Of a stretch of DNA of 64,000 nucleotides, positions 296 through 3,687 are shown in pieces (within the stretch, counting starts at the first letter, position 1; each line of letters begins with the position of its first letter). The notes under the pieces are model-generated. The model searched no databases. It had not been told where the DNA came from and saw nothing but the letters and a program-made list of their open reading frames with translations. Location of the stretch: NCBI GenBank assembly GCA_018697035.1, contig JABHSE010000004.1:195300-259299 (forward strand), written 5' to 3'. This DNA comes from an archaeon (GTDB lineage Archaea > Nanobdellota > Nanobdellia > Pacearchaeales > GW2011-AR1). The position numbers were made by a program, and so were the translations under genes.

Positions 296-676
296 TTAGG
301 CAGTTTTCTTCCGATAAACTTCAATCGCCTTCCGCAAAGCATCTGCTGCCAAGTTACTACAATGCTCCTTAATCGGAGGCAACTCACCCAAAGCCAAACT
401 CACATCCTTATTACTAATCTTCTCAGCCTCCTCCAAAGTCTTACTCTTAGCCAACTCAGTCGCCATAGAACTAGTAGCAATAGCAGCAGCACAACCCATC
501 GTCTGAAATTTTATATCAACAATCACATCATCTTTGACCTTAATCATAATCTTCATAACATCCCCACAACTAGGATTCCCAACCGTCGCCTCAGCATCAG
601 CATCCTCAAGCTCCCCCATATTCCGCGGATTCCGAAAATGCTCCATTACATTCTTATTATAATCAACATTTCCCAT
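296..676 (-). CDS. iscU: IscU-type Fe-S cluster scaffold protein
   Basis: IscU/NifU N-terminal scaffold on which IscS-derived sulfur and iron are assembled into clusters. It has the family start [13 protein letters not shown] and the three cluster cysteines in the usual contexts (GNPSCGD, TMGCAAA, KEHCSNL) plus the conserved Asp after GNPSCG. About 126 aa, normal for a stand-alone scaffold. An ATG at 676 (MGNVDYNKN) is preferred over 712 because it cuts the overlap with the upstream methyltransferase from 50 to 14 bp. Last gene of the iscS - DUF1858 - methyltransferase - iscU operon. Confidence 0.93.
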
Positions 677-1466
677 CACAACAGCATCCATATTTAACCT
701 CTTCAACTCCAACTCTCTTAACCAGTTTTAACTTCAAACTTTCCAAATCAACCCCATCATACTGCCTCTTACTAATATCCTTATCCTCACCCAAAATCTC
801 AACATCAAACCCAGCACCTTTGGCAATATCAATATAATCATCCCTCAATAAAGCGCCACCGACACACCCACAAAGCATCTTGTCATCATTTTTCTTTTCC
901 GCACTCAAGTCACTGAGCAATACAATATCAGAAACATACATACTCCCATCATCTTTCAAAACTCGATAAGCCTCATCGAAAACCTTCCTCTTATTCGGAG
1001 CCAGATTAATCACACAGTTACTAATAATAACATCCAATGATTTAGTACTCACAGGTAAATTTTCAATATCCCCAAATCGAAACTCAACATTATTATAACC
1101 ATTTTTCTCAGCAATTCCCCGAGCCTTGTATATCATCTCTTCAGTAAAATCAACCCCTATAACCTTTCCAGATTCACCAACCTTTCGCCTAGCGATAAAA
1201 GCATCAAACCCAGCACCACTTCCCAAATCCAAAACAACATCCCCCTCAGTAATCGCAGCCATCGCAACAGGATTCCCACAACCAAGCCCAAGATTAGAAT
1301 CACTAAAACTTCCCATCTCCTCGTCGCTATATCCAATAGATTTACTTATAACTTCATTGCTAGAGCCAGCATCACAAGCACACTCACTACCACAACATCC
1401 GTCACCAGCTATCTTAGAATAATTCTCCCGAACTATTTCCTTAACATCCTCACTTTTTCTCATCAT
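663..1466 (-). CDS. ArsM-like SAM-dependent methyltransferase
   Basis: Class I SAM methyltransferase resembling arsenite methyltransferases. The SAM-binding loop [13 protein letters not shown] lies near residue 80 and is preceded by [10 protein letters not shown], the segment typical of the ArsM family. Cysteines include a [11 protein letters not shown] cluster near residue 22, the NCVINL and CGCVGGAL motifs, and a CCCDGKC tail, which fits thiol-bound metalloid or metal chemistry. It overlaps the DUF1858 gene by 17 bp and iscU by 14 bp, inside the Fe-S assembly operon, so a role linked to Fe-S or thiol metabolism rather than arsenic detoxification is possible. Substrate unproven; no arsR or arsenic pump is seen nearby. 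Confidence 0.8.
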
Positions 1467-1650
1467 TCAATTCCTCCAATAACTCGTCAACATCAACACC
1501 GTGCGCCTTCGCTCCATTCTCAAGTGTTTCAAAAGCAGCCATAGGACATCCCCCACAAAACAATCCCTTATCTGCCAATTTCTCAGCAGCATCCTTGTCC
1601 TTGTCCATAACGTCTCTAAAAGTCATATCTTTAGTAATCTTTTTACTCAT
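1450..1650 (-). CDS. DUF1858 redox-disulfide domain protein
   Basis: 66-aa helical protein of the DUF1858 family (often annotated hybrid-cluster-protein-associated redox disulfide domain). It has [20 protein letters not shown] followed by the paired cysteines of [15 protein letters not shown], a possible dithiol or metal site. The ATG at 1650 is chosen because the upstream alternative at 1656 would be TTG; it overlaps the end of iscS by 8 bp, indicating translational coupling. Position between the sulfur donor and the scaffold suggests it handles sulfur or redox chemistry for cluster assembly; this is inference. Confidence 0.82.
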
Positions 1651-2851
1651 CTTCAACCTCCCTTGCTACTCCCTTAATCTTCCCCTCTCCCAACTCCGAA
1701 CCCCCAACACCCAACTCTTCAAGCGGCAGCTTGAAGGGACTCATCTCCCGAAGTTTCTCCACAGCCTCACTAACTTTCCCCACAATATAATCTTCCTTCC
1801 CAATCACATCCACCCCAAGCGACAGCCTAATGCTCCCATGAATATACATCTCATCAACATCCAACGCCTTCAAAACATAACTTTCCTTAAGCTTAGTCGA
1901 AGCACATGCACTACCAGTCGAAACAAAAATACCCATCTCATTAAGCATCAACATCAAAGCCTCTCCCTCGATTCCATAAAATGACACGTTAATGTTATTA
2001 TACACCCTATGAGTCAACGACCCATTTATCCGAGTCCCAGAAATCTTCATCAACCCCTCAATAATTTTATCACGACTATAACGAACTTCGTCAATCTTAA
2101 AATCCACATCTATAGCAGCAGCTAACCCAACAGCTCCAGGCACATTCTCAGTCCCACTTCTCAAATTATTTTCCTGTCCACCTCCAGTAAGAATAGGTTT
2201 AATCTTAACGCCGTTACGAATATACAAAATTCCAACACCCTTAGGAGCTTGGACTTTATGCCCAGAAATACTCATCAGATCAATCGAAGCCAATGCCAAA
2301 TCCTCCTTCAAAAATCCTTGCACATTGTCCGTATGAAAATAAACCCCCTTCTTCCGACAAATAATCCCAATCTCCTCAACAGGCTGCAGCGTCCCAATCT
2401 CATTATTAACATGCATAACAGAAACAACCAAAGTATCATCCCGAACTTTCTCCCGAACCTCATCCAAACTAACTATTCCCTGCTCATCCACCTTCAAATA
2501 GTCAACCTCATAACCTTCACTTTCCAAATCCTTACACGTATCCAAAACACAAGGATGCTCAATCACACTCGTAACAATATGCTTCTTCTCAGGATTAGCT
2601 TTAGCCAAACCTCGAATCGCCAAGTTATTAGATTCAGTCCCACCACTTGTAAAAGTAATTTCTTTAGGTTCACATCCAAAATAAGCAGCAATCTTCTCAC
2701 GCGAGCCCTCAAGATGTCTTTTAGCCTCCTGCCCAACATCATGCAAACTAGAAGCGTTCCCATAACTCTCCAAAAAAACTTCATTCACAGCTAAAGCAAC
2801 CGCATCATCAACACGAGTCGTAGCCGCATTATCCAAATAAATCATTTCCAT
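1643..2851 (-). CDS. iscS: cysteine desulfurase (IscS/NifS family)
   Basis: PLP-dependent desulfurase that strips sulfur from cysteine for Fe-S clusters and tRNA thiolation. The N-terminus is MEMIYLDNAATTRVDD; the PLP lysine is in ISGHKVQAPKG, and the catalytic cysteine is in the loop STGSACAS. About 402 aa. A start 18 nt upstream (2869) is possible, but it would place the operator at 2852-2867 inside the coding region; ATG 2851 lies exactly 25.5 nt from the centre of the TATA box at 2873-2880, matching the leaderless pattern of this genome. First gene of the Fe-S assembly operon. Confidence 0.95.
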   Translation of the reverse strand: MEMIYLDNAATTRVDDAVALAVNEVFLESYGNASSLHDVGQEAKRHLEGSREKIAAYFGCEPKEITFTSGGTESNNLAIRGLAKANPEKKHIVTSVIEHPCVLDTCKDLESEGYEVDYLKVDEQGIVSLDEVREKVRDDTLVVSVMHVNNEIGTLQPVEEIGIICRKKGVYFHTDNVQGFLKEDLALASIDLMSISGHKVQAPKGVGILYIRNGVKIKPILTGGGQENNLRSGTENVPGAVGLAAAIDVDFKIDEVRYSRDKIIEGLMKISGTRINGSLTHRVYNNINVSFYGIEGEALMLMLNEMGIFVSTGSACASTKLKESYVLKALDVDEMYIHGSIRLSLGVDVIGKEDYIVGKVSEAVEKLREMSPFKLPLEELGVGGSELGEGKIKGVAREVEDE

Positions 2852-2880
2852 GTTCACAATAGTTAACATTACTTTATAAA
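2852..2880 (-). promoter_or_regulatory. iscS promoter with palindromic operator
   Basis: On the - strand TTTATAAA (2873-2880) is the TATA box, and GTTAACTATTGTGAAC (2852-2867), a near-palindrome, fills the space up to the ATG. The same 16-mer with one change stands at the same place before the HTH gene (3272-3287). A repressor bound here would cover the transcription start. Confidence 0.78.
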
Positions 2881-2905
2881 AATATCGGAAACACCCTTAA
2901 CAAAA

Positions 2906-3271
2906 TCAATACTTAGGCGAACAATTGCAATACTTAATCACATCCTTATTATACTGCTTACAAACATTACAAGAACAATGATTATCCTTCATAAACTTCA
3001 AAATCCTCTGCATCTCAACCATCGCAACCTTAGGATTCTCAAAAATCAAAGCAGCCGACTTCTTAACTTCCCTTTTCGTTTTAGCATCCAAACAAACCTT
3101 ATTCGCCCTCTTATTCGACAAATACTGACTAACCGCAGCCTTACTAACTCCCAAAGCAGCCCCAGCCTTCTCATAACTAAGCCCATGCTCTTTAGTCAAC
3201 AACCTAGCCAACTCCTTCCGAACAGCCGGGATGATATACCAAACTTCGATTTCTTGCGGTAATAAATACAT
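2906..3271 (-). CDS. HTH regulator with C-terminal Cys cluster (COG2522-like), probable Fe-S sensor
   Basis: About 121 aa. An XRE-type helix-turn-helix occupies roughly residues 30-58 (YEKAGAALGVSKAAVSQYLS); the C-terminus holds NHCSCNVCKQYNKDVIKYCNCSPKY, five cysteines arranged as CxCxxC and CxC that could hold an Fe-S cluster. It stands directly upstream of iscS, and both promoters have the same palindrome, so the simplest model is an autoregulated repressor of Fe-S assembly, an archaeal analogue of IscR. Start: ATG 3271 rather than GTG 3277, because it lies 25.5 nt from the TATA centre and leaves the operator outside the gene. Cluster binding is inferred from the cysteine spacing only. Confidence 0.82.
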   Translation of the reverse strand: MYLLPQEIEVWYIIPAVRKELARLLTKEHGLSYEKAGAALGVSKAAVSQYLSNKRANKVCLDAKTKREVKKSAALIFENPKVAMVEMQRILKFMKDNHCSCNVCKQYNKDVIKYCNCSPKY

Positions 3272-3300
3272 GTTCACTATAGTTAACTTTCCTTTATAAA
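3272..3300 (-). promoter_or_regulatory. promoter and palindromic operator of the HTH regulator
   Basis: TTTATAAA at 3293-3300 and GTTAACTATAGTGAAC at 3272-3287 (both read on the - strand). The inner ten bases ACTATAGT flanked by GTT/AAC are symmetric except at one position per half-site. Same geometry as the iscS promoter, so a shared repressor is likely. Confidence 0.78.
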
Positions 3301-3323: not shown

Positions 3324-3509
3324 CTACTTAACATTTATTGCCTCAACCGGACATCCAGCTTCAGCCGCTTTTTCACAACTCAACTCCTCAACCTCACTCT
3401 TAACTGCATGAGCCTTACCATCCTTCATTTCAAAACTATCACTACAAGGAGCTGCACAAGCACCGCAGCCAATACACTTATTCTGGTCGACTGTTATCCG
3501 ATGCCCCAT
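3324..3509 (-). CDS. 4Fe-4S ferredoxin
   Basis: 61-aa soluble ferredoxin: MGHRITVDQNKCIGCGACAA, with cluster ligands in CIGCGAC near the N-terminus and the distal GCPVEAINVK cysteine-proline near the end. One full [4Fe-4S] set, with two further cysteines (AAPC and LSCEK) that could form a disulfide as in Pyrococcus-type ferredoxins. ATG 3509 is preferred over 3521 because GAGGTG lies 4 nt before it. Overlaps the upstream membrane-protein gene by 32 bp. It is the likely general electron carrier, for example for the NiFe hydrogenase further along. Confidence 0.9.
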   Translation of the reverse strand: MGHRITVDQNKCIGCGACAAPCSDSFEMKDGKAHAVKSEVEELSCEKAAEAGCPVEAINVK

Positions 3510-3687
3510 CTTCCACCTCATTTAGTCTACTACCAAAATCACTAATTCTATAATATTCTTCCTCAATAACTTTATCACTAACAATCGACCCCATAATCAC
3601 ATTTCCAATAGTCGTCGACATAAACATAAGACCCAAACCAACAAGAACCAAAATACCAATTCCAATCGCAACATTCCGCTTTATCAT
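3478..3687 (-). CDS. small single-pass membrane protein
   Basis: 69 aa; a positively charged start (MIKRN), one hydrophobic helix at about residues 5-32 and a charged acidic tail. No family recognised. It is the first gene of a two-gene unit with the ferredoxin and shares a bidirectional promoter with LemA. The coupling to ferredoxin is the only hint of function. Confidence 0.6.
   Translation of the reverse strand: MIKRNVAIGIGILVLVGLGLMFMSTTIGNVIMGSIVSDKVIEEEYYRISDFGSRLNEVEDGASDNSRPE

Follow-up and report, generated by a model that had tools for sequence, protein, structure and literature searches.

Results

The window analysed here is a stretch of 64,000 nucleotides from an archaeon of the order Pacearchaeales, and all features described lie on its reverse strand. 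A gene for a single-cluster ferredoxin (3324..3521; PF13370) stands just upstream of the gene for a helix-turn-helix (HTH) regulator of 121 aa (2906..3271). Next come iscS, a cysteine desulfurase of the NifS/IscS type (1643..2851; NCBIfam TIGR03402, E=7.7e-136, below the curated cut-off), the gene for a DUF1858 redox-disulfide protein (1450..1656; PF08984 at 56 bits, TIGR03980 at 79.6 bits) and the scaffold gene iscU (296..712; PF01592, E=1.3e-46). An ArsM-like methyltransferase gene of the isc operon (663..1466; NF008823 at 290.7 bits, cut-off 263) sits between the DUF1858 gene and iscU.

The earlier note had placed one 16-mer at the same position, between TATA box and ATG, in front of both iscS and the regulator, and this is what we find: operator O1 (GTTAACTATTGTGAAC, 2852..2867) in the iscS promoter and O2 (GTTAACTATAGTGAAC, 3272..3287) in the regulator promoter are exact matches, read as 2867-2852 and 3287-3272, and both are perfect 16-bp palindromes. 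Each lies 5 nt past its TATA box TTTATAAA (2873..2880 for iscS, 3293..3300 for the regulator), and its 3' end abuts the ATG, which is at 3271 for the regulator and at 2851 for iscS; there the listed 408-aa reading frame opens within the operator, and the ATG after the operator gives a protein of 402 aa. Transcription of archaeal promoters starts about 25 nt past the TATA box, so both mRNAs would have almost no leader, and a dimer on the operator would span the DNA from TATA box to start. The ferredoxin gene has no operator of its own, and is a conserved neighbour in relatives.

By its sequence the regulator is a Cro/C1-type (XRE) HTH protein and not one of the Rrf2/IscR family, from which the earlier note had already set it apart. 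HTH_3 is matched at 23.5 bits, just above the gathering score of 23, and at E<=0.001 in 32 of 67 relatives. Rrf2 (PF02082) has no match in the regulator and is absent among the families listed for the 67 relatives; a genome search with the same model matched 13 of 14 control genomes and nothing in the window's own genome. No curated NCBIfam model fits the regulator. We presume COG2522 to be its likely family, on which we found no paper, with most subscription journals lying outside the search. An AlphaFold model based on 67 sequences (mean pLDDT 86.7) predicts an all-helical fold with a long first helix, the HTH and a helical C-terminal part, and is weakest in the Cys tail (pLDDT 60-75). Searches of the PDB by phmmer and by profile gave matches at the level of the HTH only; among solved folds Foldseek returned none at E<=0.001 and VIA-align none at Z>=5, an absence that proves nothing.

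The tail, CSCNVC-x10-CNC (2921..2977), is the presumed cofactor or sensor site, judging by the conservation of its Cys in relatives. It holds the five Cys that had been counted there (C99, C101, C104, C115 and C117), and the sixth of the protein, C60, lies outside it. Across 29 relatives C101 and C104 are invariant and C115 is kept in at least 90%; across 67 relatives C115 is invariant and C101 is kept in at least 90%. C99 and C117 vary, and the CxC motif is not conserved across the family. The tail takes the form CxCxxC...CxC in the group to which the window's protein belongs; near relatives have CxxC...C, and distant ones CxxH...CxxC. No ThiN domain follows, the regulator ending at 121 aa, and in a protein this small, with no further sensor domain, the tail is left as the sole candidate for a sensor.

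The genome as a whole, a draft of 808,832 bp that is 84% complete, was covered by pattern searches. The symmetric form GTTMACWATWGTKAAC has five sites against 0.009 expected by base composition (P~6e-13), which excludes chance; there are no sites at one mismatch, and the next-best matches, at two mismatches, are about as many as with the reversed control. The earlier note had proposed looking for the 16-mer in other promoters of the genome, and three further sites came to light, so that three of the five front genes other than those of Fe-S assembly: a copA unit, a cupin gene and nrdR-nrdD. At the copA unit, which encodes a small membrane protein and CopA, the site follows the TATA box after 4 nt; at the cupin gene it follows directly, with the ATG 4 nt further on. 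Unlike the others, the nrdR-nrdD site precedes its TATA box, by about 35 nt, and may serve activation or a second mode of action. Among 15 same-genus genomes this site, about 140 nt before nrdR, is perfect in 5; in about four others it persists at the same position in degraded form (L220 to L235). On contig C1 of the window's genome, a gene (L021:7640-9070) encodes a fusion of HMA, DsbD-like membrane and cupredoxin-like parts with a Cys-rich C-terminus; it adjoins CopA and a small Cys-rich protein, in what is a probable copper handling cluster beside a copy of the 16-bp operator. Neither Rrf2 (PF02082) nor SUFBD genes were found in the 84% complete draft, and ISC is therefore probably the only Fe-S assembly system of this incompletely assembled genome.

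Of 200 genomes of the order, 77 encode a homolog of the regulator; within the genus the count is 15 of 16, the window's own included. Upstream of nearly all close homologs the palindrome again stands between TATA box and ATG. Matches to the pattern GTTHACNATNGTDAAC number 39 across the 200 genomes, and those to the reversed control 8. The pattern is found in 26 of the 77 genomes with the regulator versus 1 of the 123 without it, and 26 of the 27 site-bearing genomes have the regulator (Fisher P=1.5e-11 over the 200 genomes, with kinship not corrected for). A wider set of 80 named loci was drawn from MAGs of Pacearchaeota, Woesearchaeota, Nanoarchaeota, Aenigmatarchaeota and Nanohaloarchaea. 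In these the core TTMACNATNGTKAA is present no more than 75 nt from the start of the regulator in 14 of 14 same-genus promoters tested and, at up to one mismatch, in 35 of 49 relatives outside the genus, down to about 33% identity, both counts being uncorrected for relatedness among genomes. Controls at up to one mismatch gave 16 of 1018 control upstreams (1.6%) and 7 of 1540 shuffles (0.5%), and most of the matching control upstreams themselves precede Fe-S, iron or SOD genes.

Gene order was compared as well. The regulator is the first gene of isc or suf operons in Pacearchaeota, Woesearchaeota, Aenigmatarchaeota and Nanohaloarchaea (for example regulator-sufB-sufD-sufS-sufU-sufC at L169), and isc or suf genes follow within 5 kb at 27 of 29 loci with the CxxC...C tail and at 17 of 27 with CxxH...CxxC. 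The iscS operon of genome G110 is unlinked from the regulator, and still the operator lies between TATA and ATG of iscS, which tells a shared regulon apart from mere gene adjacency. At three loci (L137, L139, L149) a cupin gene is part of the isc operon, in support of the cupin site in the window's genome. A paralog clade (support 100/99) has lost the isc/suf link (0 of 11 loci) and partly adjoins nrdR-nrdJ or doxX; several of its members show the same half-sites with a different operator centre, GTTAACATGTGTTAAC. It is very improbable, then, that some other transcription factor binds the palindrome and that the linked HTH protein is a passenger: genomes that lack the regulator almost never have the site (1/123), the site accompanies the regulator promoter in ISC and SUF settings alike, even where isc lies elsewhere as in G110, and the half-sites persist in the paralog clade.

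Intein-like insertions were seen in two genes. The iscU-like gene behind the regulator in G111 is a 547-aa reading frame (L095:4715-6358) interrupted right at the conserved '...VGSPAC' cysteine (LSGDTMIAVADG...), and nrdD in G108 is a 1790-aa reading frame (L083:6494-11866) with the insertion after '...LGAYC' (FDDKTKILTENGW...).

The regulon was read from 34 regulator-bearing genomes, in which TTAACNATNGTTAA has 71 sites and the reversed control 3; since many of the genomes are closely related, the counts are not independent, and the gene families were confirmed for example loci. The regulator's own promoters are among the 71 sites, and part of the sites have no clear target gene. The earlier note had made its circuit depend on further promoter sites at Fe-S genes, and the relatives do have them: before sufB (seven times), sufD, an iscS that is unlinked, a fusion of DUF1858 with an A-type carrier (PF01521; three times) and a ferredoxin, which makes Fe-S biogenesis the core target. 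Operators also front iron and oxidative-stress genes, namely the FTR1 iron permease (three times), Fe/Mn-SOD (four), Ni-SOD (two) and a glutaredoxin, and DoxX and an NAD(P)H-quinone-reductase-like protein belong to the relatives' regulon as well.

Several of these targets deserve mention in their own right. The Ni-SOD genes with the operator in their promoter are from Woesearchaeota (L333 and L335; PF09055 at E=1e-42 for L333), and such an enzyme may be unusual in DPANN archaea. At L312, L318 and L322 the operator is present at genes that join DUF1858 to an A-type Fe-S carrier domain (PF01521). This suggests a role in Fe-S transfer or repair for DUF1858, which the window's isc operon encodes too. 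In two genomes (L334, L337) the operator lies in the promoter of a protein of 138-141 aa with the motif 'VCNGCCCGHEEKG'; the L334 protein gave no Pfam match.

Copper genes call for a separate word. The protein could in principle be mainly a sensor of copper(I) or soft metals, with a CopY-like CxC, that induces CopA, with isc induced along with it as copper destroys Fe-S clusters. The operator fronts the copA unit in the window's genome and a cupin-copA unit in G106, the CxCxxC...CxC tail recalls that of CopY, two distant relatives (L187, L188) adjoin a CopA gene and an ArsM-like gene lies within the isc operon. Across most relatives, however, the regulon has suf, iron permease and SOD and no copper genes with the operator, so that copA is not a general target; the cupin is found in only two same-genus genomes, and the CxC motif is not a family trait. 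Having been raised by the window genome's copA site, a copper sensor was set aside as the main reading on the relatives' sites at suf, FTR1, SOD and A-type carriers, and we regard it as improbable.

Discussion

Comparison among genomes supports the circuit well, and it is much wider than the window shows: sequence comparison establishes the operator, where it lies, its tie to the regulator and the regulon. The word small, used of it in the earlier note, was too modest, since the regulon also reaches copper efflux, ribonucleotide reductase (RNR), iron uptake and superoxide dismutases. The regulator appears to be a widespread, autoregulated repressor of Fe-S, iron and oxidative-stress genes in DPANN archaea, with IscR-like logic in another protein family.

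We put at roughly 0.6 the probability of the explanation as a whole, that is, a cluster-responsive autorepressor of Fe-S assembly and of lineage-specific iron, oxidative, copper and RNR genes. The 121-aa protein would bind directly, as a dimer, to GTTAAC-NATN-GTTAAC between the TATA box and the transcription start and would block RNA polymerase; the operator position argues for repression as the sign of control. The one sign of autoregulation is the conserved site in the regulator's own promoter, which points to a negative feedback loop and is in line with the autoregulated circuit, with shared operator, proposed in the earlier note. It would govern Fe-S assembly, through isc in this genome and suf in relatives, to which individual lineages add iron uptake, superoxide dismutases, ferredoxin, glutaredoxin, copper efflux and ribonucleotide reductase. 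Such a regulon suggests that the signal reflects oxidants or the status of Fe-S or iron, and the C-terminal Cys (or Cys3His) site would most likely take an Fe-S cluster from the very machinery that the protein controls. The holo-protein would repress; should clusters run short or be lost to oxidants, metal stress or a lack of iron, the apo-protein would release the operator, switching on genes of repair and supply. By analogy, the RisR model, in which the holo form represses and loss of the cluster derepresses, would be the most economical (PMC9973013).

The ligand of the tail is where another view has to be weighed. With the same repressor and the same regulon, the Cys/His tail might bind structural or labile zinc and sense oxidants or electrophiles by thiol oxidation. 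CxxH...CxxC is frequent among zinc sites and also occurs in haloarchaeal HTH+ThiN proteins; across the wider family it may therefore be a structural zinc site, which is our main caution regarding an Fe-S cluster. The regulon includes SODs, glutaredoxin, DoxX and the NAD(P)H-quinone-reductase-like protein, and archaeal thiol-switch regulators exist, for example MsvR (PMC3729527), SurR being another. Yet the most consistent target in both ISC and SUF lineages is Fe-S assembly, together with the iron permease and the A-type carrier, none of which a general oxidant sensor need control; stand-alone members have no second ligand domain of the ThiN type, so that the tail is their only sensor, and the pacearchaeal tail deviates from the zinc pattern. 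We consider zinc unlikely and prefer an Fe-S cluster as the probable ligand.

Control of Fe-S cluster assembly in archaea seems to be largely undescribed. In a literature search that missed most subscription journals we found no published archaeal counterpart or archaeal isc/suf regulator, and no regulator is mentioned in the papers it returned on the SUF and SMS systems of archaea. In a survey of 553 proteomes the IscR family had only five members from archaea (PMC9973013). On balance we favour a dedicated and ancient archaeal regulator of Fe-S homeostasis, in which a Cro/C1-type HTH carries a Cys/His tail that senses the cluster and the operator TTAACNATNGTTAA is kept across DPANN phyla under ISC and SUF, and hence an independent loop of the IscR/RisR type. 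The result is a named regulator with its operator and a regulon that lends itself to testing, in DPANN archaea that are for the most part uncultured, and with the same control wired onto both ISC and SUF.

Among known systems, CopY, the copper repressor of Firmicutes, has a short Cys tail with CxC motifs, and copA is among the targets here; CopY is, however, a winged-helix protein with a copper-only regulon. SurR and MsvR are likewise small archaeal HTH regulators with functional Cys, and SurR sites contain GTT...AAC and overlap promoters, but both belong to other DNA-binding families and serve other regulons (sulfur/hydrogen and the methanogen oxidant response). DNA binding by MsvR is redox-sensitive (PMC3729527), and we found no homology of either protein to the regulator. 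Haloarchaeal HTH+ThiN proteins are closer: by tblastn they share 28-32% identity at up to 98% coverage with a SUF-type relative, that is, about 30% over nearly the whole regulator, with a homologous HTH part and a CxxH-x12-CxxC segment, the latter being that of the SUF-type relative whereas the window's own protein has CxCxxC...CxC. One of their genes lies beside thiamine genes, and these proteins are probably ThiR, the archaeal thiamine repressors. They differ in carrying a ThiN-like second domain, annotated 'thiamine-phosphate synthase family', and the regulator described here sits in isc/suf operons.

The closest parallel in logic is with the bacterial Rrf2 proteins IscR and RisR. Their genes lead isc or suf operons or are linked to them, and the proteins act at palindromic operators and have three Cys in the C-terminal half, with a His as further ligand in IscR (Cys3His). 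The present regulator, too, stands at the head of isc or suf operons and has the operator in its own promoter. Holo-RisR represses both isc and suf, and iron limitation or oxidative stress lifts this repression (PMC9973013). In contrast, the DNA-binding part is an Rrf2 winged helix there and a Cro/C1-type HTH_3 here, and the RisR core is GAC-N7-GTC (PMC9973013) as against GTTAAC-N4-GTTAAC. If the tail does hold a cluster, a feedback loop of the IscR type arose a second time, on another DNA-binding family; by this analogy the protein would be an Fe-S feedback regulator of the IscR/RisR type in its logic and a member of a different protein family by descent.
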